DNA from: Sphagnum magellanicum
Lineage: Eukaryota; Streptophyta; Sphagnopsida; Sphagnales; Sphagnaceae
Reading direction: 5' to 3'
Assembly (NCBI GenBank): GCA_021904315.1
Contig: CM038907.1
Location: 1,798,001 to 1,862,000 of the forward strand
DNA: 64,000 bases
Part shown: in pieces, positions 8,525-63,530 of the stretch
How the letters are laid out: every line of letters begins with the position of its first letter
Position numbering within the stretch: position 1 is the first letter of the stretch
Notes under the pieces: generated by a model
What the model saw: the letters and a program-made list of their open reading frames with translations, nothing else
Told to the model about the DNA's origin: nothing
Database searches by the model: none
Made by a program: the position numbers and the translations under genes

Positions 8525-11500
8525 TCAAAGTGGACTTAATTGGAAATAAGACGTTTGTGGAGCCTGAGCTCTGGCATCTTCCTGCTGTAGTTCTGCACCT
8601 TTTACCACAATAACATCTGGTGATCCTGTCTTCTCCAGTTCTTCAGGATTAGAACCCACATGCTCTGTAGCTCTGCTGCCTCCGGAAACCCCGAAAAGAG
8701 TTGTCAATGTCTCACGGTGAATCTTATCATTGTAACAGAATGCAGACAAATGACCCTCTCCTGGCAAAGGATGGAGGTGAACCAGCTCTGGAATCTGTTG
8801 GCCATCCACATAAGAAACAAGACATGATGTAAGGAACAACTCTCTGGCTCCTCTCCCTTGCCACAGTGCACAAATCCCTTCCCCCAGCTGGTTTCATAAT
8901 CATGAGCTTTAAGTACATCACAAATTTGCCTTCATACTGAACTCTGACACATGTTACACTAAGCAACAAGAGAAACAGCTGCTGACCAGTTTTTTTATGC
9001 ATTTCTGGAGATTGATTGGGACAAGCGAATCCTCATCGCCATTCCAGATATGCAATGGACCATGAAACATTTTTGGCACATCAGTGATCTCGAAGCCCCA
9101 ATGATGCGTAATAAGATACAGATCATGACCAAACCCAAAGTACTTCTGCTTGGCGGACTCAATGTTGTCCCTGCAAAACAGAAAACTTGACATAAATTGA
9201 TGATTCTTATGATCATATCCTGTAAGAACACACTTTTACTGGTTTGACAAATTCAGTGGCACAAAAATGCCCTTGGTACGATTTAAAATCAGCAAACACT
9301 TTGCAAGGTGACAGCTAAACAAAAATGAATTGGAAGGTTTTCTATGAAGTCCAAAGTCCAAACCCATGCTGGAATAGAGCTATCTGGTCTACTGAGACAT
9401 CTGCAGATCATACAATCATATTCTTTGCAAAAGAATTGAGCTTCATATTAGTGCAGCACTCAATTGACCAATTGAGCATATTAGCAGCACTCAATTGAGT
9501 GCAGAGAATCAGTGCTGCAAATATTGAGTGCAGCTAATATGAAGCTCCAAAGAATTGAGTGCAGCTAATTGCTAATATTGAGCAAATTAGTGCAGAGATC
9601 AGTAAAGAAAGGGCACAAGTGCCACATTACGGCATAAAAATTCCAAGTGAGTTTACCAGCACACAGAGAGAGACAGAGCAGACTTTCAGGAAGATCTTCC
9701 TTTGAAGTACCTGATAATACTCTCATATGCTAGAGGCTTCTCTAGATAGCGAATGTCTGGGGGTGAGAGTTTGGCACTTGCTGCTTCAACATGTTTTGGT
9801 CCCACTGAACGCAAAAGAACATGACGTGCATACATATGTAGAACCCATGGAGGCAACTTTCTGATGATGGAAAGCTCCCTCCTCGAGTCTTTGTTAAGAC
9901 TTGATCCAAACACAATGCTTCTGTCAGCCTCTGATATGTCCTACCCCCACAGACAGACAGACAGACAGAAAGAGTTTAAGAGTTTTTCTTTAAAAGTTTT
10001 TGTAGTCAAGTTTGTGTTCTTGCTGTGTTGAGATTTCTCTGCATTGGATTCTTCTCATAGAAATGATAAATTGCAACTGAGAGAAAAAAGATTACAATCA
10101 CGAGAAAAATTTCTGATTTTCATCCACTCTGATATTCCCACAGCTCGCAGAAGTAAAAAATTTCTCAGCGCCCAAACAAACAGAACTACTGTAGTTGATT
10201 GATGAACATGAGCAAAATTATTGTCATTGTGAGAAACAATCAGAAAGGACTTAAATTCCAAACCTTCCACCAGTAATTGCCAACAGGTGCCCACATTGCA
10301 ATTCCAGCAATGCGATGAGGAATATAATATGCAGCTCCCCAGCAATAAGCACCACCACACGAATAACCTAATAGCCAGATTCTTTCTCCAAGCTCCAAGA
10401 GGTCAGCAAGTTGAGCAATGTCGGCTGCAAATGTTGCAAATGTTTGTATCGGATGTTTGTCACTTCTGCCATAACCAGGCCGGTCTATTGCCACCAGTCT
10501 CACACTCAGTTCCCTCAGCAAATCCTCATCCACCCCTGCATTACATTATAACCACCAAAAAAATAATCAGACACCAATTTTTGATAAACTTTCACCAGTT
10601 GGGCAAGAAAATTTCCATGCAAGGAAAAAAGGTTGAAGTTTTTGGACCTCTGAAGGACTCCTGAACATGGATCGAAGAATCTCTGAATAATAAAAATAAT
10701 AAGAGGAATAGAGCATTGTTGTTGGATTCAGTAGTTAAAAATTTGCATTGCTCATCATCATCACTGAATCTCTATCACATTTTCCCCCAATTTCGGTTCA
10801 ATTGCAATAACGTTTTCTTCAGAATTTGCAAGCAATATTCTCTATATCCTGATTCCTTCCCCATGTGATACAGGAGGGAAAAAAATATCATCAGTGTCCA
10901 CATGCAGCTGTCAAGATTCACACAACAACAACCACCACAGCGATAACAAAAAAAAAAACAACAAGAACAACCGCAACAATAACAATTACAAGAAACATAC
11001 AATAATAATAACAAGAACCGGAATAACAATAACAATAGCAACAACCAGTAGGAGCTAAATTCCAGCAACAGGAAGAACAAGCAAACAAACAATCAAACGG
11101 AAGAAGAATGGCAAGAAAGATGGAAACGATAATCGTTGGCATCGTCATCATGATATTGCAGCAAACTTGAGAGAGATGATGAGGAGGATAGGAACTCGTT
11201 CCTGTATGTAGAGGGATTGTTGTTGGATTCATGCAATTTTAGTGTGTTGGGATTGTTGTTGGATTCATGCAATTTTAGTGTGTTGTGATTGATTACCAGG
11301 CATGCCTGCGAGACGAGACGAGGCGATTCCATGCAGCACCAGCAAAGTGCGGTGCGCTACTTCCGGCGGCGTCACTCCTTGCTCCCGGTATGCCAATCTT
11401 CTCCCATCCTGCAGCGTTATGAACTTCGCCTCTTCCTCCGGCTCCATCACCACAGGTCCCCTCTTCCTCCTGCTCCTCTTCCTCCTGCTGCTGGTAGTTC

Positions 11501-20174: not shown

Positions 20175-23100
20175 ATGGCAACCATGGCTGGCATCTTGCC
20201 ATGGCAACTCATGATGCGGGGTACTCGCCTCCGGCCAAGATATGGAAGCCTCCATGTAGATATCCTTAGCTCATTGAAATGTGGCCAATTGAGCTGCCTG
20301 GCCATCACGAGGATGAGCATGCATAGATATAACATGGGTCATCATCATCTGAGATTGATCATGAGACAAGCCACGTCTTCTTTTGATGGTTCAAACTCAA
20401 CAGAGGCTCCAAGTGGTGATGGAGCCGCTGCCATCCCTGCTGCTGATGAAGAAGAAGTGATCCTTCCGTCAGACACAGAGATGATTGTAGATCCTAGCAG
20501 CATACAGGGATTGGCAGATGCCAATGGTTCTGCCAAAAAAGAGGAGGCATATCCATCCGGGGATCTTGTGTACAAGAGGAAAGGAGGGTGGGAATCTTTT
20601 GTGGTGAAGTGCCGCATGTTGATTGCATGGCCATGGCAGAGAGTGAAGAATGGCAGTGTGCTGAAGCTCAAGCTGACAGGCCAGGTAATGAAAAAGAATC
20701 AAACTGGTTCTCCTTTTTTCTGTATGCTAATTTTTATCTGTACACAGAGAAGGAAGTTTTGGGGATGGGTTTTGGTCAGAGTTGGATTGGAGCAGGATTG
20801 AAAAATCTCTAAGAAGCTCGTCAACCAGTCAGCTTCTCATTGCCCAGAAATTTCCTGCAATGAGAAGCAGTTCCCCTAAAATACAAACATCTGCCCTCAC
20901 AAGATACAACCCATATTGGGTTTTCTGGAGACTCACTGCCTATATGTCATACATGGCTGCAATCAAGGATACTCTTTATCAACAGTGGCTTTGTGTTGAT
21001 CTAGGTCAGAGAGCAGTACCAAGGCCGGTTTATGCAAGGGCTCTCGCTACCACAGATATGTGAGAACTTGATCAAAGCAGCTCATGACCCCCGCATATCT
21101 GGTGTGATCCTCCAAGTTGAGCCTCTGAGCTGTGGATGGGCAAAAATTGAGGAAATCCGCCGACATATTGAGTATTACAAGGAGTCAGGTGAGTGTGTAG
21201 TAATCTATTGGATTGATAAAAAGCCACTTCACATATCAAAACCACATTAAAGCAATGGGTATTCTTGGAAATTCTTTGGTCAAGGCAAAATCAACAGGCA
21301 AGAGATTTCTTGTCAGAAAAAGCATGGGTTTTGGATGGATGTGAGAGCAGCAAGTTTGGGTGGGTGGGTGTGTGCGCTAATACTATTTTTTGTGTTGCAG
21401 GTAAGCCCTTAGTGGGTTACATGCCAGTAGGTGGGGAGAAGGAGTATTACTTGGCATGTACCTGTAAAGAGCTCTATGCCCCACCAGGAGCTTACATCTC
21501 TCTCCTAGGTCTTAAAGTTCAAGCTCAGTTCCTTGGAGGTTGGATTTTCCATTTCCTGTTCTGACCCAATGTTCCATTTTGGAGTTTGAATTTCATATGA
21601 ATTTTTTTTTCCCTGGCTAAGGTGGTAGTTTCTGTCTTCCCGTATGTTTGATTTCAGTGTTTTGTTATTTGTTTTATATGGATTGTATTATATTTGTGTT
21701 GTCAGTATATTGACAAGTGTTATGGGTGTTTTTTTTGCTTCCAGGAGTGCTGGAGAAGGTAGGCATTGAGCCTCAAGTGCAGCGTATAGGCAAATATAAG
21801 AGTGCTGGGGACCAACTCTCCCGAAAGGAGATGTCAGAAGCCAATCGAGAAATGTTGACAGCATTATTAGATGACATCTATGCTAACTTCTTACAAAAGA
21901 TCTCTTCCTCTACAGGTTACTGAAAACCCTAGCTTTCATCAGCTCAATAAATCAGCTATTTGCAAATCTTAAAACTCCAATAAAAGTAGTAGTAGTAATG
22001 AAAGAACTTGTATGTTTCTCCTTTTGTCTGTCTGCTGTGTGACTGAACTTCAGATTTAAAAACCATTTGTGTGCTGTGCATTGTTGGTAGAAAAAAAAAA
22101 TTGTTCATTGTAGGGACATCTGTTACAACTTGAGCATCTTCAGCAGAATCATTTCATGTGTGAAAGGAAAAAAAAAGAAAACAGTTGTGTGTGGGTACAT
22201 ACAAAATGCCTATACAAGTTCAGTTGTCTTTGGAGAGATGATGATGTGTGTTTCATCAATCTGTTTGGCGAGGTGCACTTGCAGGCAAGTCAACAGCGGA
22301 AGTGGAGGCATTACTGGATAAAGGTATCTATAGCATGGAGAAGCTGAAAGAGGGTGGCTGGATCACCGACATCAAGTATGCTGATGAGGTTTCCCATTTG
22401 ATGAAACCTTAAACCCTGGTGTGTTTTTTTTTGCCTGGGTTTGTTTTCTGTCTCCTATCACCACTTGGAGAACTAGCCTTTTTTATGCAGAAAATATTTG
22501 GGTGGAAACCAGATTGAGGAGATGCTGAAGAAGAGAATCGGGGCTAAAGAGGACAAACCTCTTCGAACAGTTGACTACAGGTTAGACCAACCAACAAATA
22601 TACTGTTGTAGTAGCATCACTTGGATGATGTTCCTTCTGGTCACTGCTTGATTCATCACCGGCCTCAAAGAGAAAATTGCTCTATTGCTCTAAGAGAAAT
22701 TTTGAGCTTAGAAACATATGTTTTCTTTTTCCAGCTATTGTCTCTCTTTGAGTGCTCACCAACATCATGACTGAGTCTTCCCATTGCTTCCAGAAATGCA
22801 ACAGAGACTCAGCATGCAGAGTAGATTTGTGTAATGGGTTTGCCCACATTCTGGGCTGATTATTAATTATATGCTTATCTACACCCACCTTCAGGAGACA
22901 ATGCAGTCAGTGGGTAGTCATGGCAGATATGTCACTGCTGTTCACAATGAAGGTAATGATGGTATAACACTGTGAGCAATTCTCATAATGTTATTACGAC
23001 TGCACCCATTGTCCTCTTTGTGGGTCAGTCTCTAAACCTGTGTGTATAGACTGGCACAAAAGACTGGCCTCTTTTTTTGCTCTAAGATCTGAAACAAATT

Positions 23101-25423
23101 GTTCAATTTTTATGGCTTAAACTTGAGATCTTTTTTTGGTTGTGTGAGAGCAGGAAATACTCAAGGGTCAAGTTATGGACATTAGCTCTATCAGGGGGAG
23201 GGGACTGTATTGCAGTTATAAGAGCAGCAGGGAGCATTAGTCGGCAGCAAGGCAGTGGCCTTGCAGCTGCTGGAGAGGGTATTGCTAGTGATACATTCAT
23301 CGAAAAGATACGGCTAGTACGAGGTTGGTTTCTTTCCCTGGTAGTCCCATCTGTTTCAACAGTCCTGTTGGAGTGAAAACAGGGAAGTGAGTGGAAAACT
23401 CTGTTGGAGTGAACTGAATTTCTAAACCCCTCTTTGCATTTTGTGTTCCTCTTTCTTTTGCAGAATCTAAGCAGTTCAAGGCAGTAGTTCTCCGCATTGA
23501 TAGCCCTGGTGGTGATGCACTTGCTTCAGACTTGTGAGTCTCTCTTGACTTGCTAGTTGTATCATAGAGATGGCGGTTGTCATTATTTACAGTGTTGACA
23601 TGTCTATCTGACTCTACATCTGGTCAAGCTCTCAACACAAAAGTAGCATCTCTTGGTGGTTCTTCCATCACAAAGAGAGTATGAGAGATGCTTATGGGTT
23701 GTGTCAGTTTTTAGGATGTGGAGGGAGATCAAGCTTCTTGCAGAGAAAAAACCAGTTGTGGCTTCCATGGCTGATGTTGCTGCGAGTGGTGGGTACTACA
23801 TGGCCATGGCTGCGGGTGTTATTGTTGCTGAAAGCCTCACACTTACAGGGTCCATTGGGGTTGTGACAGGTATGTGAATGCTTTCTTCTTCTTCTTCTTT
23901 GCCTCTTTATATCCCCTCTCTTTGTTTTGTTGTGTAAGTTTGGTTGTCAGTTCTTTCCCATTTCCAGAACCTGATATTGTACACTTGTGCATGGACAACC
24001 AGTGAAATTTAACCTTGGAGAACTTTATCAGCGAGTGGGGTTTGCCAAAGAGATAATCTCAAGGGGCAAGTATGCAGAGCTTGATGCAGACCAGCGTGCT
24101 TTCAGGTACAGTTTGCTGATTTTTGGGTATGCACATTTCCCCTTTTGCACTGACTAAAGGGTCTAGGGTTTTGCCCAGTAAGACAGGATTTTGTGCACCC
24201 ACCCATGTGATTTTATTGGTGTGCTCATAGTGTTGAGGAGGAACAAGTGTTAATAGCTAGCAACTGACACACTGAAACTTTGTGGATCTTGACAGACCGG
24301 AAGAGGAAGCCTGGTTTGCAGAATCAGCTATGAATGCATACAAGTCATTTCGAGATAAAGCTGCACTGTCAAGATCCATGAAGGTTCGTTGCAAAATTGC
24401 TTTTGGCATGGTCTTACCAGAAGAACTATTTAACTTACTTTGGAGCTTGAAGTTTAGGGTTTAGGGTTTAGAGCCTATTGCAGAGGGCAAAGTACTCTTA
24501 ATCACGGCTCAGTCTCCATCCAAACATAAATGCAGTCTGTGTTCATGGCTGTATTAGTATGCCTCTGGTAAATCTGACATGATTGTCTGGCAAGTTTTCA
24601 CAACTGGAGTGAAACCTCTGAACCCATCTGCACCATCATACCAATTGCACCACTCTTCTCATCTTTATTCAAAGTGCATAATTTCAAGTTGTCACCAATC
24701 GTTACCTTCATGAATTAGTTGTGTATGTGCAATCATCCTATCTTTTACCTTCTCCTCTGTAGCAAAAAGTCCTCACCCCTGGACTCTTATGCAGATTGAA
24801 ACAATGGAGAATGTAGCTCAAGGGCGAGTATGGACAGGAGTGTCTGCATTGAGTCAAGGATTAGTGGATACAATTGGTGGATTTTCCAAAGCTGTTGCTA
24901 TTGCAAAGCAGAAAGCTGGCATTCCAGATGATAAGCAGGTATTTTCCTAGTTTTCTAATGCAATATGGCTGTGTGCAAGGTGACCTTTTTTCAAGGTGTT
25001 GAGCTGGTGGTAGTTTTACCCAGACAATATCTCTTGTTAGCAATAAACTGGGTATTGATGCTTTTTCACTAAATGAAATGTTGAGACAAAATCTTTCATA
25101 GCTCTTGTTTTCAAACTTGTTGTGCAACATGTGCGCACTCAATTGTGTAGGTTTCCCTTGTGGAGCTTTCAAGGAGACAACCATCACCTCTATCATTATT
25201 ACAAGGTGGAGCATCCTTCATTTCTCTAGTCAATGAGTTCTTCCAAACAGAGATGGGATCACAAATTCTCGACACATTAGTACGAGGCGTTCGTGCTTCC
25301 AATGATATCTCCGCACTATCATCGAGTGGAGTGCAAGCACGAATAGATCCAATTAGCATTGATGGGTTAGGAACGGAGCTCGTAGAGAAGATTCGCAACA
25401 AAGAGACAACAACTGGTTCATGA
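20175..25423 (+). CDS. SPPA: Chloroplast signal peptide peptidase A (SppA, S49 serine protease)
   Basis: Membrane-associated plastid protease of family S49, with Ser-Lys chemistry and two repeated domains. Thirteen exons: 20175-20684, 21005-21188, 21401-21538, 21745-21915, 22285-22388, 22513-22580, 23154-23323, 23464-23533, 23715-23869, 24003-24105, 24296-24383, 24795-24938 and 25151-25423. Every phase agrees and the product is 725 residues. Roughly 65 N-terminal residues look like a transit peptide, followed by an acidic linker. Family marks: PQICENLIKAAHDPRISGV, CGWAKIEEIRRHI, GGEKEYYLA (catalytic Lys about 245), GIEPQVQRIGKYKSAGDQLS, LRIDSPGGDALASDL, ADVAASGGYYMAMAA (nucleophile Ser about 496), TGSIGVVT, RGKYAEL, DKAALSRSM and VAQGRVWTG. 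Both catalytic residues are present and no stop or frameshift is seen. For exon 6 I chose the acceptor AACCAG|ATTGAG, because the upstream CAG breaks the frame. Confidence 0.96.
24452..24471. promoter_or_regulatory. Telo-box repeat inside an SppA intron
   Basis: Two to three TTTAGGG units in the intron between exons 11 and 12. Probably neutral; recorded as another example of short telomere-type repeats near genes in this window. Confidence 0.4.
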
Positions 25424-30726: not shown

Positions 30727-31507
30727 AGTATTTAAAGGCCAGCACTGGCTATGCCAATCATTGTGGCTGGCCAACCAATAGCCAATCATCGTGGCTGGTT
30801 TTACACTGGAATGTGTCCTGTGTACACATTCAGAAATCCAACCCTCAACAGTTTCACACTATTTGAACATTGGATGAACTTCATCCAGAGTACACTGTAC
30901 AGGTCATGGCCCAAACTCAATTTTCACACTATTTGAACATTGGATGAAGTTCATCCAGAGTACACTGTACAGGCCATGGCCCAAACTCAATTTCACACTA
31001 TTTGAACACTGGATGAATCTTCATCCAGAGTACAACTGTACAGGCCATTGGCCAAACTCAATTTCACACTACTTGAACACTGGATGAACTTCATCCACAG
31101 TACACTGTACAGGCCATGGCCCAAACTCAATTTCACACTACTTGAAGGCGGGGTAAAGTGCTTTCATCCTAAAAGTACAGTGTTGAGGCCATGGGTCAAA
31201 CTTAGTTCCACAACATTTGAAGAATGGATGAACTTCATCCAGAGGACACTGTACAGGCGAGTTTACTGTTGGTGGGCTAAGAAGAAGAGCATCAGGGCAT
31301 GGGCCAAATTCAAATTTCACCGTATTTAACTCTGTAAGTACTTTCATCCAAAAGTTCTGTGCCCGGCCCATGGCTCAAACTCAGTTCCACACCATTTGAA
31401 GAATGGATGAACTTCATCCAATATTGTAACCATTTGTGAAGAATAGATGAACTTCATCCAAAGTACATACAGGCCATGTTACTGCCGGGTGGGTGGAGAT
31501 GCTCTTA
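30727..31507. repeat. ~70-bp tandem array with GGATGAA/TTCATCC palindrome upstream of SDH6
   Basis: The unit starts TTTCACACTATTTGAACA, continues with the 15-base palindrome GGATGAACTTCATCC, and ends near CAGGCCATGGCCCAAACTC. Copies begin near 30853, 30923, 30991, 31062 and 31131 at 68-71 base spacing, with diverged copies to about 31470. The region ends in GGAGATGCTC followed by TTA (31505-31507), the same end sequence as the Harbinger-like MITE at 1238-1619. The array may therefore be the expanded inside of such an element. A matching left end was not certain. It lies 0.4-1.1 kb before the SDH6 start. Confidence 0.75.
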
Positions 31508-33185: not shown

Positions 33186-35725
33186 CCACAAAGTTCTCAG
33201 TAGCAGCAGCATTGTGTCAGTCAGCCCTTGTTGGTAAGCTCTTAAAATATGGGATTGTCTTTTCATGTTGCTTGGAAGTCCCTTCAGCAAGAAGTAGGTT
33301 GAGATTAAACTTTTGGCACTGAATATGATTTTAGATTAGCACATATGTAGTAGATTGGATATGGCTTGAAAAGGACAGACTGTTGTGTGTTGTATCAAGA
33401 AGAATGTATTGTGTAAAACAACTAGGCAAAAAACATATTGCTCTATAATGATGCCATGGACCTTGGCATTTGTTTTCTCCTTCAACAACATTTCTTTCTG
33501 TCTTTTCCCTTGAGGCCAGATTTAATAATCAGGTTGTCTGGAGAAGGAAGGGGAAATCGAACAACCCAAGTCAAAAATCATGCTGACGACTCTCAAACGT
33601 GCAAGTAAAATGATGAGAATGCAATACCTGGTATGTTGTGATGATTTCCAATTGTGGTGGCATTGGCTAGGTCCAGAGCCAGCAAAACCACCCACTGTGA
33701 GCATTTGGGTGTTGTCTGTTGTTCCGCAGCCAAGCGTTAATAAAATCTTCTGGACATGTCTTACCGCCTTACGTCTTGTGCTCAAAATCTGTTGACTCCA
33801 TGCCAACTAATTTGCCTGGATAAATACAATTGTAACACATAACAAGCAGTCTTGTTGATTCTAACAATGTATGGGAAGCTCACTCTCTAGAGATACAAAT
33901 TCAAATGTTGGAATCTGTGCCTATGCTACTGAATCTAGTGAGGTCTGTATCTGTAATCTGGTGAGCAAAAACAGTCTACAAATTTGGTGGTAACCACAAA
34001 GTAAGCATGAGACAGAAAACAGGGTTAAACACCCACCCAAACTAGGCAGGATTTTGATTAGGAACGCATAATAATAAAAGATATATATTGTTAGGAGAAT
34101 GTATATATGTATAATTTGCCAAAGGGTTATGTTTTAACCAGAACGTGATTTTGTTAAGGTTGGATTTTGGGCATTTTGCTGAGACATGTGATAGCTCTCC
34201 TTTGTATGTCTTGAGAATCTTTTCTTAAAGTTCAGATGATTGAATAGCATTATCAAGGCAACCCAAGTTGAAGTTTAGCCAACAATCTCCAATAGCCAAG
34301 CAATCCACTTGAATTGCACACTTGCTTTTGTCAGCACAGACAACATATGGATGGGGGTACTAGTCATTTGAATCCAAAAGGAAAACATTAAAAAAAAAAG
34401 GGAGTAGTTTAACATTGCTGAAGCTTTGCATATTATTATGTTCTGAGATGAGGAATTTTTTGGCCAACAAAATACAGTTTCTGTCAGGACTCAAAACTGT
34501 CTTTTTACTAGTACACTCTGCAGAGCATAGAGTCAGAGAAGGGAATTGAACCCCAGAAATTTTCTTCAATCCCTTACACCAAGTCTGCATATTCATGTTA
34601 TCGAGAGAAATTTTCATCCTCAAAAGGAGCATGCATTTGGTTTTTTGAAATACCTCACCTCTCTTTTTTCTTCTTTCTTTTTTCTTTGTCCTATGATACC
34701 CACCAAGTATCACAGTTATATATATATATATGTAATTTGAGCTCCACGTTGCTATGCACTACCAATGACAATGATTAAATTATTTTGTGTGGACATAATA
34801 ATTTTTTTATTAATTTTTTTCCAAAAGATAAAATTTTGTAAATTATATGTCATTTTGATCAGTTAATCTTCTCTTACATTCTTGATTTGGTAGACAAAAT
34901 GTGATTGAAAGTTCAATTCATTAGAGAAATTCATAACAAGATACAAATAGACCCCAAAAAAATAAACATTGAAAGGGTCTAAGATAAACAACAAGAAATG
35001 ATTTTGAAATGAAATTCAATCTACAACAAATTATAATTTGAAATGACTCTGGAATTGTCATGGAGACAATCACAAAAATACCCATCCTACAAAAACAGGT
35101 TCTGACAAAACATCGTCACTGGAATATATATCTATATGTGATTTTCTGCTGGTGCTATATGTTGGGTAATGCTTAAGGAGCAAGGTGTTCCCGAAATAAA
35201 TATTTATTATTTTTTTCTTTAATTTTTTCTCAACATAACTCTTTGAGTGAAAATGCATGATCAATTTGGATTACTAATGATAAATCAAATATCTCTCGTA
35301 TGGAATAGAAAGTTAATATTTATAATTTATAAATCACACATCATAAAACAAACCCACAATGAATTCGAGAGCAATCTCTCTAATGTCATACGCACTAGAA
35401 ATATTATGTAATGGGCAATTGGGAGGACTGAATGAAAAGGCAGATGGCCATAAGCCACATCCGACTGAATGGCCGTTATCTGACATAATCGGCACTCAGG
35501 AACATTCTGTCACAATCATTAAGGAATTCCTAGATGGTTTGCTTTGACCTCACACCATGATGTTTTCTCTATGTGCGGGTTGCCCTGCATTTGAAAGAGC
35601 AGTTGACCCTTGGAAGTTTAGGGTGAGGTTGGAGTTTCTCATAAGTGAAAATTCACATCTCTGGAACAGAAATTAGTAGTTGTCGGATTATTTCATCCCA
35701 GAAATCATTGTTTCCGATATCACCA
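33186..35725. other. SDH6 3' region and gene-free spacer
   Basis: The SDH6 3' UTR should lie in the first several hundred bases. Nothing else is recognised: ORFs of 60-120 codons overlap each other on both strands and have no family resemblance. A short (TA)n tract occurs near 34717-34732. Confidence 0.5.
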
Positions 35726-35729
35726 TTAA

Positions 35730-36000
35730 TTTGTTGTCTAGAATTAGGAGCTTGAATTGCAATTTCTGCATGAATTTGTTGTGTAGAATTGAGGAGCTTG
35801 AATTGCAATTTCTGCATGAATTTGTTGTTTAGAATTCAGAGCTTGAATCGCAATTTCTGCATGTATTTGTTGTCTAGAATTGGGAGCTTGAATCCCAATT
35901 TCTGCATGAGTTTGTTGTCTAGAATTAGGAGCTTGAATTGCAATTTCTGCATGAATTTGTTGTCTAGAATTAGGAGCTTGAATTGCAATTTCTGTATTTG
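35730..36000. repeat. 45-bp minisatellite, six copies
   Basis: Copies of GAGCTTGAATTGCAATTT followed by CTGCATGAATTTGTTGTCTAGAATTAG begin at 35748, 35794, 35839, 35884, 35929 and 35974. Spacing is 45-46 bases. As 45 is a multiple of three, both strands show periodic 15-residue ORFs (minus strand IQAPNSRQQIHAEIA), but nothing else marks a gene. Confidence 0.85.
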
Positions 36001-36303
36001 CCACACAAGAGATCTGTGAACCCTTGTTAGGGTTTAGTTGACAACCCGAAAAGGTGACACCCAATCATCCAATTCTACTCTTTTGGTTTTTGTTGTTGAA
36101 ATCCATTGGGTGTTGGAGTGTATTGTTTCATTGTTTGAAAATACACACTCCAGTTATGAGATCAACAATTTTGGGAAGGCTATATGTATGGTGAGACAAT
36201 TGTGCAAAGGCTTTGTTGTTCCATCCAGAAACCGTCCACAGACTCAATCAATCCGACATCATGTCTCCTTGAACCAATTGCAAGTTTTGTGGTTATTGTA
36301 ATA

Positions 36304-46160: not shown

Positions 46161-47335
46161 GCTACCTTTTGGAACTTATGATAGATTATGACAAAAAAAA
46201 TTATTGGATTATTTGAAAAAATTGGCAACTTGATAAATTCAAAAACCTTAATTTTCATTAAATTGAAAAAAAAACCTTCATTTGATGAAATTTTGCCCCA
46301 AATTTTTTTTTGATCACACCTATCCCATTTTTGTACACAAAGTACTTAACATTTCATTTTTCTCTTCCTTATAACACATTACAAGACGTTGAAATTCTTG
46401 GCCATATAATAATTAGCTCTCCATTGATATGGGAACTACAACTATTTTAGGTTCAATTTCTTTCTTTTTGGTCCCACTCATATTTAATCTCCTTCTATCT
46501 TCATTTTGCACCATAGTTATTAATTATGTAGATAAATTCAATTTAATGTCACATATTTTCTTAAGGAAACATTGAAAACCCAAAATTTGGAAACATGACA
46601 AAAGTTGGTTCATTTCACATGGTTTTGATGTTTCTAATGTTTCTAATTCTTTTGCCTTGCATGTTTCAACATACCACACTCAACCCCAATTCCTTGATAT
46701 ATCAATTTCAAAATTAGGTTTTGGATAATATATAGTTGGGAACATTATGAAAAATCATGAATGAGATCTTTTTGGAAGGATTATAAATTATGAGTGAAAA
46801 GACCCCTCATCTATAATCATGTTCCAGTGGTCCATGGACATGAAAAACCCACTCATTTCTTTAATGGTAATTTTACGCAATGCTATACATATATATTCTA
46901 ATGGTGTATATTAATATATATTATAACGTTGAATTTTTATTAATTTTCATATTTAGTACATTCAGAAAATTTTCCTAGTTAATGTATTTTTTTAAAAAGA
47001 AAGGAGCTTACACCTACCACTTGAGAGTGAAGAGAAAATATGTCTATTTACAAGTGTAAGATCCTTCACGATGTTATGGAGTAGGTGCAAGATCATATTT
47101 AAACGTTTTCCCCAATGTCTCGTGATCTATGTGTATATTTAAGTTTGTGATAATATTTGCCTGATGTTTTCATGATTTCAAGTGGAGGACATTTGAAAAC
47201 TTAGGGCCAAACTTGGCAATGGCCTTATCCTAGGGCCTTTATTTTGGGAAGACCCACCTTAGGATTCTATGGTCCATTTATTAGGTGTTTGATGATGCAA
47301 ATTTCACCCCCTTTGTTAACAAGGTATTATAAATA

Positions 47336-47540
47336 GGCTACTTTTAGTTATTTTAAACCATTCCACCCTAGGTTACTTTTGATTATTTTAAACCATTCCA
47401 CCTTAAGTTACTTCCAACTTATTATAGGCTATTCTAGATAGGCTATTTTTGGTTATTTTAAACCATTCCACCCTAAGTTACTATTAACTATTATAGGATA
47501 TTATTGGTTTTTTTAAGTTATTCAACCCTATGCTATTTTT
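47336..47540. repeat. Tandem TTTTAAACCATTCCACCCTA units
   Basis: Three recognisable copies of a unit containing GGTTATTTTAAACCATTCCA begin near 47336, 47375 and 47445, with further GTTACT and TATTATAGG words. They resemble the array at 30.1-30.7 kb. Confidence 0.6.
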
Positions 47541-47939
47541 TAATTTTTAAGCTATTTTTTACTATTCACATTTTTACTAGTGTACTAGCCAACATCAATG
47601 TAATATTGTGACCAAAAATCCATATTGGGTTTACATTTATGTGACATAAACCAATTAATGGCATTGAAACACCATTTTGGGTTGCAACAAAAACAAACAC
47701 CTATATATCTAATTTTTTCAGTTGCATAGCCCATTTGTTTAATAGTTGTAAAATGTCTCAAGTTAATTAGGTCCAAAACATAGAGTCCCAATTCAACTAT
47801 GAATGGATTATATAAACTACATAATGAATTGGGTCCATTACATACTGAACCAATTCTATTATAATAGATTCAATGAACTATATAGTGAAATAAGTCTACT
47901 ACATAGTGACCTAGTTCACCTATGGTGGATTGACATTTA

Positions 47940-48018
47940 GGGTTAAGTAAAGTTATTTCACTATGAAAGCCCCATAGTGATTTAGGTTAATGAATTGTGC
48001 CCACATTTTGTACTATTG
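47940..48018. mobile_element. CACTA-like MITE right end abutting the mitochondrial insertion
   Basis: GAATTGTGCCCACATTTTGTACTATTG matches the right end of the element at 43794-43923 apart from a few bases and stops about ten bases before recognisable large-subunit rRNA sequence. The left end is not clear. It may have interrupted the rRNA copy. Confidence 0.5.
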
Positions 48019-48028
48019 TTTAAAATAT

Positions 48029-49260
48029 GGTTGCTTCTGAGCTCACCTCCTAGTTGTGATTGCTCAATTATTTATTTTTCTACTAAGTACTTGCTTAAGG
48101 ACCTTAGCGTACAATTTGGGTTGTTTCCTTTTTGACTTTGGATCTTAGCACCCAAAGTCTATGTGTACAAAACCATGATTAGTATTTAGAATTTCTTTGG
48201 GGTTGATCAAGCTTTGGGCCACCCTAACCCATTTTGTGTTTTGCCTCAAGCCATAAACATTATACACTCTACTTCAATAGATTCATAAAAAACCAACTAT
48301 CTCTAAATTTGGTGGGCCTTTCACCCCTAACCACAAGTCATCCCCATATTTTGCAACATTCATGAATTTGGTCTTCCAAGGCCCATTAAAGTTCTCTTCA
48401 ACTTATTCATGGCTAGATCATTCAATTTTGGGTTAAATAGAAAACAACTACATTATTTATTTACTTTCAACTACATTGCACTTACATTTAATGGCTTAAG
48501 TTTGTTGTGTTCATTTACTCACTAACCCAATATGCAAAAGGTGCATTGTTAGAGTGGAAAGTTAAATAGCAATACAAAGAAAAAAAATAAAAATTTAATG
48601 ATTTTAAAATTTAACTTGCTTTGTCCTTCGACTAATTATTTGCATTGGATTTCAAGTTTTCTATTGCACTCCCTTTCTTAGGGTTATTTTCACCTTCTTT
48701 CACAATACTTATACATTTCAATCAATGAGGAATATTTAGCCTTAAAAGGTGGTCCCTTTTGGTCACATAAAATCAATCATAATTCAAATATAGTATTTGC
48801 ACTTTACTTATCAAATCAAACCAAAGGAACAAATTTAAACAGCTATCACCTTCTTTGGCAAGATTTTTCAACCTTTTCACAATTCCTCAAATGGTTTTTC
48901 CATCATGCAATTTTGAACAAATTAAATATGAAAAAAGAAGGTTGAAAAAACACTTGCATTGTACGTTTTCTCAGCCTTCTCAAAAAGCCTAATCTAGGTT
49001 TGTTTGTCGTTACTAAAAAAGTCTTGGTTGATTTCCTTTCCATTACTTATTTAAATGTTTCATTTTATTAAGTTTTGAAAATCCAAAGTGGAGTGCAACA
49101 CACTAATGTGCCACTTCACTCAAATATGATTTCCTGATTGCAGATCCATGGATCACAAATGTTATCTACCCACTACATTTCACCTTTAAAAGCATCCTTC
49201 TTTCCCAATGTTTAGGCATCCATGCAATACGTTTTTTTGGATACAATAAAAATTGCACCT
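48029..49260 (-). pseudogene. rrn26: Mitochondrial large-subunit rRNA (rrn26), 5' third, decayed nuclear copy
   Basis: On the plus strand the complement of conserved bacterial-type 23S rRNA is readable: GGTTGCTTCTGAG, CTTAAGGACCTTAGCG, GGGTTGTTTCC, TTAGCACC, CCTTTCACCCCTAACCACAA, CAAGTCATCC, GGCTAGATCATTC, ATGCAAAAGGTGCA, GAGGAATATTTAGCC, TTGGTTGATTTCCTTTCC and GGCATCCATGCAATACG. The order matches the 5' third of the molecule. Differences from the conserved sequence are mostly C to T or G to A. The 3' two thirds are absent at the left, where a CACTA-like end abuts. This is a nuclear mitochondrial insertion, not a functional rRNA. The mitochondrial rather than plastid source rests on the linked 5S rRNA. 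Confidence 0.85.
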
Positions 49261-50101
49261 ATGTTGCAACTCACTACCAAAATATTCGCCAATAAGGTTT
49301 TTTAAATGATGGACATGCCTTCTAGTTAGGTGATTTATTATAATGCCTTTGAAGGTGCACTAGGGCTCAAAAATGAGGATTTACGCACAAAATGCATACT
49401 CTTCCAATAAAAAGGATGAAGGTTTATGCACAAAGTGCTTTTTTTTCAATAAAATGACAAGGAAAAAACCTGATACTTATTAAATTTCAGGCTAACTAAT
49501 AGTTTTTTCTATTACATTAGCAAACTTGGCCACTAGTGGGCACAATTTGGGAAACAAACATTTGTTTCCCAAATTTACCACTATTATACCCAAACAAATT
49601 GCACATAAGTTGGTTGTGGGCAATTTCATAAATCTAATTATAATTAGCATAAAAGGAGTTCTATTAGCTAGGAAATTATTCATTTTCAATTTGCATGTTA
49701 ATTATTGATCCCCAAAAATATTAAATTGACATTAATATAATTAAATGGAAATGCATGCAAAAAACCAAACCATTATAAATACTTAACCAATATACCTTTT
49801 TTTAATCCTATGAATGAACATTCAAGATCATCAATGTAATAAAAATCCATTATATGTATGTTATATATATTTACATGTCATTTTGTTTACATTACAAGCA
49901 AAATCTAGGTTTCATTTTGCTTAAACCCAATAGATAATTTAACATTTTAAACTACACCATTAATGATATAAATAAACATATTCATATCTTTTATACCCGA
50001 TTGATTTATTGTTTGAAAAAATGAATAGTGCACAAAATTGAGCAAATAACAAATGCACTACTTTCTAGATTCCATTATTTACCAAAACATTTATAACATT
50101 T

Positions 50102-50171
50102 GGTGGGAATAGGATTTGAACCTACAACATTTAGATTATGATCTTGACGAGTTACCAATTATTTTATCCCA
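50102..50171 (-). pseudogene. trnfM: Decayed initiator-type tRNA(CAT) in the mitochondrial insertion
   Basis: On the minus strand the 71 bases begin TGGGATAAAATAATTGGTAA and end with the T-arm GGTTCAAATCC, then TATTCCCACC. The anticodon loop ATCATAA reads CAT. The layout resembles plant mitochondrial trnfM, with GC pairs turned to AT. It lies between the 5S and large-subunit rRNA copies on the same strand. Confidence 0.7.
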
Positions 50172-50800
50172 CAAGCATAATAAAGCTTATTCAACTACAA
50201 AAGAAGAATTATTTGACCAACTTTAAGTATAACCTTTTTTTATAATTCTCGCATTTTTCTACCAAATTTTTTTATGGTAGTTCATCTATCAACTAAAGTC
50301 TTACATAACAATACTTTGGGACTTAACTCCCAAAGCAAGAATCATCAAGCAATTTTTTATTTATCATTATTTTTTGTAACTTTATTTAATGAGCAAATTG
50401 TGGAGCCAACTAAACAAGTCCTTTGGCTTGCTTAAAAGATAGTTGCGAAGTTGATTTCTTTGAAGATATTTGTAGATGTTTCATAGCCCAATTCATCATC
50501 ATAGATGGTCAATATTATATATGTTAATGTCATTAATCAACACATTCCTAAAAAAATTCTTTGTTAGGCTTGCTACATTTTCATCCTTTGCATTTGATTT
50601 TAGGAAGCCACATCCACCCCCCTACTACCCCCACTTTGTACCCTCTATAAGCTTCGTCAAAGTCACTCTTTGGATTTTATTTATCAAAGCCTTGACTTGA
50701 TTTGGTGCCTACAAAAAAGGCCCACCCAATCAATTTTACAAAAAATGTTTTTTTTTACTATATATGCACATTAGAACTTTAAATTATATTAAATATGTTG

Positions 50801-50922
50801 TCTAGGCTTCTACCATGTCTCCTAAAATTCATAACTCAATACATATGGCGTAAGATGATTTCACATTTCAAGGTCGAAATGGGATTGGGTGTTTCCACAT
50901 CTTACCATAGTGCCTCGAGCTA
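50801..50922 (-). pseudogene. rrn5: Mitochondrial 5S rRNA, decayed nuclear copy
   Basis: The minus strand shows the plant mitochondrial 5S layout across its full length: GGCACTATGGTAAGATGTG, AACACCCAATCCCATTTCGA, AATCATCTTACGCCATATGT, then ACTGAG-like sequence, and GGAGACATGGTAGAAGCC. About 120 bases, the expected length. Substitutions are again mainly C to T. Plastid and cytosolic 5S differ clearly from this pattern, so a mitochondrial source is well supported. Confidence 0.88.
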
Positions 50923-52310
50923 CATAGCAATTAATGAATAGAGTAAAGAATCTACCTGCCCAATCGTAGGTTTCCTTTGTTCACCAAGGCATGCTACATC
51001 GGTGTTTTTTGAACTATGCTAAATAGTGGCCCATCACACAACATTCTAACTTGACTTTTTTCGAATCTTTTATCAACCTACCTTAAGCTATTTTTAAAAA
51101 GTGAGTTGCTTGTCAAAATGTCTTGCTAAAGAGCCCACGAGGGAGATGATGGCACAATAGGCTACGACAAATAAAACTCGTCTAAGTGCTTAAGAGCTTA
51201 TTGCCACCTTGACAAATGTATAGATCCTTTTTATCTTGCTTAGTGCCACACTAGGAAATTTACAAACTCATTCCATGCAAAATGGAGATTTTCATTTTTA
51301 CCTTTAAGAAAAAGACCATGGGCTCCTCTTCAACACTTTTATATTATTAAGTCCCTTTCAAGTAGGCAAAACCTCTTATTTCCAAGGTGCAAAACACACT
51401 TTCAAAAAAAGAACCTCATTTTCATTGTTATTTCTGGCATAGCTTGTCCAATTGAACACCATGCCCAATGTTATAATATTTTTTAGCATTTTGTCTTTAG
51501 TAACATGGGTAATTTGCTATACATTGAATTCTACTTTTCGTATAAATGAGTAGATTGACAATAAGCCCTTATGACCTAGTCAATTTATCCTACAACAAGC
51601 ATAGAGTAAGCAACATACATTGCACATGTTTTCATTTGTGGAATTAAGGTGTCAATGCTTGGTTGCTATGTAAAAGGCCCTAAAAGATTTTATAATTTTT
51701 TATAACATTAAATCATATTAGTATGATAAGCAAGCTAATTTCATGTTGTTGAGTTATTTGCTTTCAAAATGGTAACCTTTCCCTCCTCCCTTGAAGGAAG
51801 CTTCTCACATGTGCTTTGGTATGCATGTTTGTTACCATATTAAATGAGTGTAATGCCTTTTATATAAATTTGAACAATACAATTTTTCATGCATGAACTA
51901 AATTGTGCACCCTTCATTAATTATTTGGCTAGGGCACATTTTTTTGGTTCTTTTATTCATACTTATTAAAAGGCCTAAATAAAAGTAAAACATAATATTA
52001 GTGCATAATTGCACATGCTTTCTTTGATTAAATGCATCAAAAAAAATATCAATAGTAAATTATGATAGTTTATAAGTTATTAACATTACAAGTAATTATC
52101 TGCACTTTGTTAGTACAAGTCTGTAAAAATGAGAGTATAGTGATGGTTTATGTACTTTGTGAAGTGTAAAATGAAAATGTATTATATATGATCAATTTTT
52201 TTGTCTAAAAAACATCCATTATGTCAAATATTGTACTTATGTCGAAAAACATCATAAATATTTATTTACTACAACCTATCGCAAAAGGAGAATTGGGGCA
52301 AGGTTAATGA

Positions 52311-52313
52311 CCA

Positions 52314-52341
<28 letters not shown>
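52311..52341. repeat. (CA)n microsatellite
   Basis: About fifteen CA units inside the spacer of the mitochondrial insertion. Confidence 0.9.
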
Positions 52342-52344
<3 letters not shown>

Positions 52345-52385
52345 CATGCCACTAAGCTATAGGTCAAATCCTTATTAAAAAACTC

Positions 52386-52459
52386 CTATCTAAAAAGAGA
52401 TTTGAACCTTCATGTGCAAATTATGACATGGTTGTTCTAATTTATTAAACTACTGTGAC
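52386..52459 (-). pseudogene. tRNA-like relic within the mitochondrial insertion
   Basis: The minus strand has a D-arm-like AGTAGTTTAATAAATTAGAA and a T-arm-like AAGGTTCAAATCTC at tRNA spacing. The anticodon loop could be read GTC or CAT. Stems are poor. It lies between the small-subunit and 5S rRNA copies, which fits a linked mitochondrial tRNA. Weak call. Confidence 0.3.
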
Positions 52460-52980
52460 ATGCATATTATAATTTTTCTATTCTACTAATTTGCTACTTC
52501 CTAAGTTTTTTTTGTGAAAATTTACTTTATGCCCAACTACAAACTAGGGTCATAAAAAAGAATGGATTTGCCATTCTAAAGGATAAAATTAATTGTGTAT
52601 GTATCAAGTTTAAACAAAATTAAAACACCTTGTGCCATTGTATTTTTAATTGCAACTAAGCTTGTAAATGTTTTTATTATTAGGTAAATAATGACATTTA
52701 TAAGCATACCTAGAGAGGTGTAAAGTATCAAGCACACCATTTCCACTTGCCATAGGCCAACAAGCCTTTAAAGTCTAATAGTGCATCCTTCATATAGGTT
52801 GTTTTGCAAGCCATGCAACCTTTGAAAAATGAAAAGTGCAAAACAAAGCTACATTTTTCAAAAAATCCATATATATATAAGCTTATTTTATCATTTGTTC
52901 CATTATGAGAAATAATTTTAAAAATAATATATATGTGTTTTCAACAAAAATGAGACAAGAACAAAAATTATTTATGGAAT

Positions 52981-53135
52981 AAAGGAGTCGATCCAAACAC
53001 AAGTTCCCCTATGACTACCTTGTTACAACTTCACCTCAATTAAAGGACCCACCTTCGTATCTTACATTAAACCACCAATTACTCCAATAGACCACACTCA
53101 ATAACAACATGGAACATTAAAGTAATGGGTGAGTG
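52981..53135 (-). pseudogene. rrn18: Mitochondrial small-subunit rRNA (rrn18), 3' end, decayed nuclear copy
   Basis: On the plus strand: AAAGGAGTCGATCC, GTTCCCCTATGACTACCTTG, TTGTTACAACTTCACCTCAA and GGACCCACCTTCGTAT, the complement of the 3' end of a mitochondrial small-subunit rRNA. Similarity fades after about 53135, where the insertion seems to end. The orientation agrees with the 5S, tRNA and large-subunit copies. Confidence 0.82.
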
Positions 53136-62740: not shown

Positions 62741-63530
62741 TCAAATTTTATAAATGTTCACAAGCATCTCTAAATTTTGTATGCCCCATATGGACCATTG
62801 CATGTTTGTGCATATACCAACAATGTTAAATACCCTTTCACTTTCAATTTGTGACCCAACAATCCCTAGAATATGTCGGGCTACAAAAACAACATAAGAA
62901 AATTGTGATTCATGAACTTTCCACCATGCAAGCAAGTTTTTGCATTCCTCATCACTTACCTTCCTAATTCTATAATGTTTTAGATGTTCCTTGACCACTA
63001 ATAAAACCATTTCTTTGTTAGTTTCCATTAGGTTATACAATGACCCAACTCTAGATTTATTCGCTTCAAAATTAATCATTATAGAAACAACAATAGTTTC
63101 ACTTGTAGCATAATGGTTCAAAAACTTATAAACATGAACCAATAACAGAAATAAAACATACATGTCATATTCACCTACAATTAAAGCATCTTTTTCCTTC
63201 CCAACATACTAAACGACCAACCCTAAACCTTTGAAACGTGGGTCTAACATCATATTCAACATATTATGAACTTTGCATTCTTGAAAGGATAACAAAAGGA
63301 AAGGAAGGCCAAAAGAACAATTACCACTTGCTTTTGCATCAAAATCCTGAGTTTTCGAAGAATCAGGGACCAAACATTGTACTTGCATTTTGATGACTAA
63401 AGAAATTGCAGCAACAAGTGCATCAAATAATAACTGATAGCCTTGGTTTTGGTTAACAACACACTGGATAACAATGGGCCCCAATGTATTAAAAATAATT
63501 TGGGCAGTGTGAGGTGACTTCTCGTCCCTC
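62741..63530 (-). pseudogene. hAT transposase C-terminal half with one in-frame stop
   Basis: Minus strand, one reading frame from about 63505 to 62741: AQIIFNTLGPIVIQCVVNQN, LLFDALVAAISLVIKMQ, NMMLDPRFKGLGLVV, a TAG stop at 63209-63211, then YVGKEKDALIVGEYD, LLAWWKVHESQFSYVVFVAR, ILGIVGSQIESERVFNIVGI and NLEMLVNIYK. This covers the end of the catalytic domain and the C-terminal dimerisation (hATC) domain, with its WW and SERVF marks. Apart from the stop the frame is intact, so this copy is younger than the ones at 28.9 and 53.8 kb. The N-terminal half is not adjacent. Confidence 0.85.

Follow-up and report, generated by a model that had tools for sequence, protein, structure and literature searches.

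Relics of ribosomal RNA and tRNA genes at the locus

The 64-kb stretch of DNA part of which stands above (the window, taken at its full length) carries decayed relics of four RNA genes, all on the minus strand, which read 5' to 3' as the 3' end of a small-subunit (SSU) ribosomal RNA (rRNA), a 5S rRNA, a tRNA-fMet(CAT) and the 5' part of a large-subunit (LSU) rRNA. The block extends from 53059 down to 47917 (~5.1 kb). A preliminary description, made from the letters of the stretch, had placed four mitochondrial RNA relics in this order on one strand over about 5 kb, and Rfam and our own profiles together confirm the arrangement. Its limits needed revision at the two ends, as the SSU is supported for 78 nt and not up to 53135, and the LSU continues 112 nt below the earlier lower limit, to 47917. 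The features are as follows.

52982..53059, minus strand: mitochondrial SSU rRNA 3' end (last 78 nt), broken off upstream; nhmmer E 2.5e-12 and 3' terminus GGATCGACTCCTTT
50918..52981, minus strand: SSU-5S spacer of 2,064 nt with a 29-bp (AC)n tract at 52314-52342; assigned by position, mitochondrial nature unproven
50801..50917, minus strand: 5S rRNA, decayed; RF00001 35.2 bits, E 3.5e-4, model 1-120 of 120; own profile E 2.6e-4
50174..50800, minus strand: 5S-tRNA spacer of 627 nt; assigned by position, mitochondrial nature unproven
50101..50173, minus strand: initiator tRNA-fMet(CAT), decayed; RF00005 28.2 bits and fMet alignments
49231..50100, minus strand: tRNA-LSU spacer of 870 nt, expected to hold the first ~16 nt of the LSU; assigned by position, mitochondrial nature unproven
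47917..49230, minus strand: LSU rRNA 5' portion, decayed, broken off downstream; RF02541 in three pieces, nhmmer E 9.3e-71

The LSU is the only match at Rfam gathering thresholds over the whole window; its three RF02541 pieces cover model positions 17-1230 of 2925 (E 1.7e-27, 3.9e-22 and 6.2e-19), and the nhmmer value comes from our own LSU profile run on the whole window. The SSU has no Rfam match at E<=1 within 44-58 kb. A profile that combines the SSUs of E. coli, seven alphaproteobacteria and a mitochondrial contig designated L003 finds its sole significant place in the 64 kb at 53059-52982 (model 1406-1483 of 1484), with the next-best match at E 5.1. In a relaxed Rfam search of 44-58 kb, the 5S lies slightly under the gathering score of 38 and the tRNA slightly under its threshold of 29 (E 0.022), and the runners-up of our own 5S profile have E 3.1 and 3.2. 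SSU, LSU and 5S thus have one significant place each within the window, the other own-profile matches listed having E 3.1 or more, and ARAGORN reports no tRNA anywhere in it. Neither SSU upstream of 53059 nor LSU beyond 47917 was found by Rfam in 44-58 kb or by our own profiles over the whole window, and the SSU-5S spacer gave no Rfam hit at E<=1 in the same 44-58 kb. Seven open reading frames (ORFs) of L003, compared with the window by tblastn, gave two weak matches only (E 0.18 and 0.85). A 35/70-bp tandem repeat is located at 47334-47502, ~400 bp past the LSU breakpoint.

Affinity of the relics

The 3' terminus of the SSU relic is identical over 14 nt to that of L003, unlike the eight bacterial reference SSUs, which end in GGATCACCTCC (GGATCACCTCCTT). 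The ending pattern GGAACCTGCGGCTGGATYGA has three matches in genome contigs (one genome per species, 84,980 species) and none in viral contigs; the only rRNA among the three is L003, so that the ending is not a bacterial habit. The other two matches (L001 and L002) have no Rfam match at gathering thresholds and are taken as chance. Besides its SSU, L003 has ORFs recognisable by eye as cox1, nad7 and mitochondrial ribosomal proteins. This mitochondrial contig (NHEP01000057.1) is assigned to bacterium TMED88, a bacterial bin from a metagenome.

The LSU relic matched 397 records by blastn in a collection of plasmid records only; among the 40 listed, 38 are alphaproteobacterial and the rest are Aliarcobacter and Stammera, with taxonomy taken mostly from genus names. 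The tRNA is identical to Azospirillum tRNA-fMet at 52 of 73 aligned bases, or at 70 of 73 when C>T and G>A differences are also counted. On the same two scores, six alphaproteobacterial tRNA-Met(CAT) genes that follow a 5S give 50-56 and 67-70 of 73, E. coli fMet 50 and 68 of 73, E. coli elongator Met 45 and 55 of 68, and E. coli Ile-CAU 39 and 49 of 72. By these alignments, the relic fits an initiator fMet better than the E. coli elongator Met or Ile-CAU. Taken together, the mitochondrial-type SSU 3' end, the alphaproteobacterial-like LSU and the fMet tRNA point, at the level of sequence, to mitochondrial homology.

A tRNA-Met(CAT) follows the 5S in six of seven alphaproteobacterial loci, the seventh (L009) having given no tRNA whatever, and the 5S-fM neighbourhood is therefore probably inherited from a bacterial operon. 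The same observation lends something to the alternative that the block is a bacterial rRNA fragment in the nucleus, or a nuclear insertion of plastid DNA (NUPT), as does the fact that the organelle cannot be told from rRNA homology alone. However, the SSU end GGATCGACTCC is common to the window and the mitochondrial L003 and occurs in none of the eight bacteria, and the bacterial reference loci have the LSU between SSU and 5S, unlike the window. The plastid rRNA operon has the order rrn16-trnI-trnA-rrn23-rrn4.5-rrn5, which differs from the window, where 5S and fMet lie between SSU and LSU; the alignments themselves were made without plastid sequence. A plastid or bacterial source is accordingly very improbable.

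Decay and loss of function

The LSU relic was compared at 753 columns that are invariant in E. coli and seven alphaproteobacteria. The window is aligned at 702 of these and keeps 477 (68%), with retention being highest for A (88%), followed by T (74%), G (58%) and C (47%). Three functional rRNAs with LSU G+C contents of 41%, 45% and 50% keep 87-94% (Stammera 711/753, Mesomycoplasma 657/752 and Ilyobacter 674/751, respectively), and the core-base conservation expected of functional mitochondrial rRNA genes is thus not seen. Five shuffles of the window sequence, aligned alike, keep 310-323 of 672-698 columns; for five unrelated segments the figures are 294-316 of 628-718. Where 11 functional rRNAs are all invariant, the LSU has lost 29% of its bases, and for this reason much of the copy is visible to profile methods only.

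Some helices are still able to pair and conserved loops survive in the Rfam alignments, as they would in functional rRNA genes if the contig were non-nuclear and came from an AT-rich mitochondrial genome or symbiont. That explanation is scarcely credible given the retention of invariant bases, the incompleteness of both SSU and LSU, and the presence of a nuclear-type gene in 13 blocks within the same window. With SSU and LSU cut short and only 68% of the aligned invariant LSU columns kept, the copy is non-functional.

Methylation context of the base changes

Changes in the LSU comprise 133 of the C>T and G>A type, 16 in the reversed direction and 76 transversions. The preliminary description had read the loss of C and G at conserved rRNA positions as a sign of long decay under cytosine methylation. 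The bare excess does not hold as proof of deamination and was dropped, because shuffled sequence aligned alike gives as many such changes (131-148 in five shuffles, and 103-155 in five unrelated segments); the reversed changes number 44-64 in shuffles versus 16 in the window. The window departs from the shuffles in these reversed changes and in the dependence on context. When scored by context as the same description had proposed, C>T/G>A losses affect 33 of 72 CG, 37 of 83 CHG and 63 of 209 CHH positions (chi-square p 0.013; columns invariant in eight references). The corresponding values are 27/54, 24/59 and 47/161 in the 11-reference columns (p 0.015), and 23/43, 21/52 and 38/138 in their well-aligned subset (p 0.005). 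The CG/CHG/CHH gradient is absent from 20 shuffles (0.39/0.37/0.39), nine unrelated segments (0.40/0.37/0.36) and the functional LSU of Stammera (0.06/0.10/0.08).

Nuclear setting

A gene for the chloroplast serine protease SPPA, apparently intact, is matched in 13 blocks, with introns, over 20361-25420 of the plus strand. Its best protein match is P0001 (a Logan protein; 98% identical over 500 columns). Among the best 120 of 7,409 matches, the named ones include Ceratodon purpureus and Physcomitrium patens (69%), liverworts (62-64%), a club moss (62%) and Selaginella (66% over 89% of the query). A tree of 19 proteins, the window's own and 18 hand-picked from the 120 listed, pairs the window with P0001 and places this pair as sister to five further proteins, two from named mosses plus three more; the seven-member clade has support of 99/98. 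Because this gene with introns groups with mosses, the host is, judging from SPPA, a moss outside the mosses sampled in the tree; our guess would be Sphagnum or some other early-diverging moss.

CpG observed/expected is 0.13-0.43 across all sixteen 4-kb blocks of the window, and a fragment of a hAT transposase dimerisation domain is present at 62744-63208 on the minus strand (PF05699, E 1.5e-6). The segment 53753-54001 looks transposase-like by eye, but Pfam gives no hAT match there. Provided that the assembly is not chimeric, the SPPA gene, the hAT fragment and the CpG depletion place the block in nuclear DNA. Elsewhere in the window, minisatellite-like arrays are found at 35702-36017 and 30827-31437, with spacings of ~45 and 70 bp, and 10243-10545 on the minus strand matches an alpha/beta hydrolase (PF00561, E 1.6e-13).

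A probable single decayed mitochondrial insertion

It is highly probable that the block is a single nuclear insertion of mitochondrial DNA (mtDNA), or NUMT, which was cut inside rrnS and rrnL, has no function and is decaying under cytosine methylation. One linear fragment of moss mtDNA of ~5.1 kb, with breaks within rrnS and within rrnL, would have entered the nuclear genome, probably when end joining repaired a double-strand break. After insertion, C>T and G>A changes have accumulated more at CG and CHG than at CHH, as predicted by methylation-driven deamination; there have also been indels, and the spacers have perhaps received later insertions. We infer that the whole stretch, spacers included, arrived as one piece. 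Its date is likewise inferred; given the base loss, and with the neutral rate put at several 1e-9 per site per year, our guess is tens of millions of years.

The order of the relics seems to be the one kept in living mosses, as far as text passages rather than maps can indicate. Passages of PMC3646698 mention trnfM-rrnL in mosses and an ancient rrnS-rrn5 linkage, and one in PMC4664403 a moss rrn5-rrnL spacer that includes a tract lying ~200 bp away from the 5' end of rrnL, which together imply rrnS-rrn5-trnfM-rrnL in living mosses, as in the window. In other plants, excerpts describe, for Marchantia, a second trnMf lying between atp4 and rnl (PMC1894977) and the tobacco clusters trnM-rrn26 and rrn18-rrn5 (PMC7100274). 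The passages available from PMC11965612, PMC6902596, PMC5798402, PMC6082510, PMC5575236, PMC11202921 and PMC6627324 hold nothing decisive on the moss cluster order.

An alternative is that several mitochondrial pieces were inserted separately, or together as one mosaic, and chanced to lie in order. Multi-fragment complex insertions are described in PMC6215612, the mitochondrial nature of the spacers (2.06, 0.63 and 0.87 kb) is unproven, and retention is unequal between the pieces. This alternative is nevertheless improbable, as all pieces share one strand and the order implied by those passages for living moss mtDNA, and the SSU reaches its natural 3' terminus and the LSU begins near its natural 5' end, like continuous mtDNA. 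The earlier proposal of one co-linear insertion is supported on these grounds, and that of a mitochondrial origin, a nuclear setting and decay by the SSU end, the SPPA gene in its 13 blocks and the loss at invariant columns.

Several points weigh against a single decaying NUMT. Because the spacers are long, the 5.1 kb may include stretches of non-mitochondrial origin. The SSU end keeps 51 of 63 and the 5S 34 of 51 columns invariant in eight bacteria (C>T/G>A being 6 of 12 and 9 of 17 changes, respectively) versus 477 of 702 for the LSU, so that decay is unequal between the pieces. L003 was the sole mitochondrial comparison sequence; it was found through a search for the SSU ending GGATYGA, and these letters are therefore shared with the window partly by selection, whereas the letters after them (CTCCTTT) were not selected. 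For gene order, the cluster r5-r18-t9-r26, given as conserved in Chara and bryophytes in a passage of the Huperzia paper PMC3325193, and the rrn18-trnMf spacer in hornworts mentioned in PMC3187804 sit badly with SSU-5S-fM-LSU. For methylation, contexts were read from an alphaproteobacterial consensus, two of the functional controls also differ slightly by context (Mesomycoplasma 0.10/0.13/0.05, and Ilyobacter with 0.12/0.07/0.07), and CHG versus CHH alone gives p 0.021 in all columns and 0.11 in the well-aligned set. The context gradient is modest but controlled, and it supports a part for cytosine methylation in the decay.

A heavily decayed NUMT can still be read by profile methods, and its loss of C and G tracks methylation context in a moss. 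The preliminary description had also valued the block as an ancestral gene order; the order itself stands, and its comparative value is weaker. As the host is a moss and living mosses are implied to share the order, little new can be read from it, and the known mitochondrial gene order is by itself unchanged by the window copy, since Anomodon, Physcomitrella and Tetraphis are described as sharing an identical order (passages of PMC3187804 and PMC4035505). It is conceivable, though unlikely, that the insertion preserves, as a fossil, the intergenic mtDNA of a moss lineage which is sister to the sampled Bryopsida, and that it predates the compact moss mitogenomes. If so, orthologous copies across species would date it, and it would hold a record of mitochondrial spacer sequence gone from living mosses.

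Comparison with known systems

With the alphaproteobacterial rrn operon (16S-Ile-Ala-23S-5S-fMet) the block shares the tRNA-Met(CAT) after the 5S, as seen in 6/7 loci. It differs in that its LSU follows the tRNA, whereas the operon has the LSU between SSU and 5S, and in that ARAGORN detects no Ile or Ala tRNA in the window. The moss mitochondrial cluster rrnS-rrn5-trnfM-rrnL, as implied by the passages of PMC3646698 and PMC4664403, has the same gene order; the window spacers total ~3.6 kb, and the likeness to mosses covers gene order alone. Among the literature matches listed there was no survey of moss NUMTs, and one may still be in print. Compared with plant NUMTs, the window copy is very decayed and has long spacers, but like them it is an mtDNA fragment with both breakpoints inside genes, non-functional and decaying, and its contig carries a nuclear-type gene and part of a transposon; it appears to be an ordinary instance of a process that is well known.

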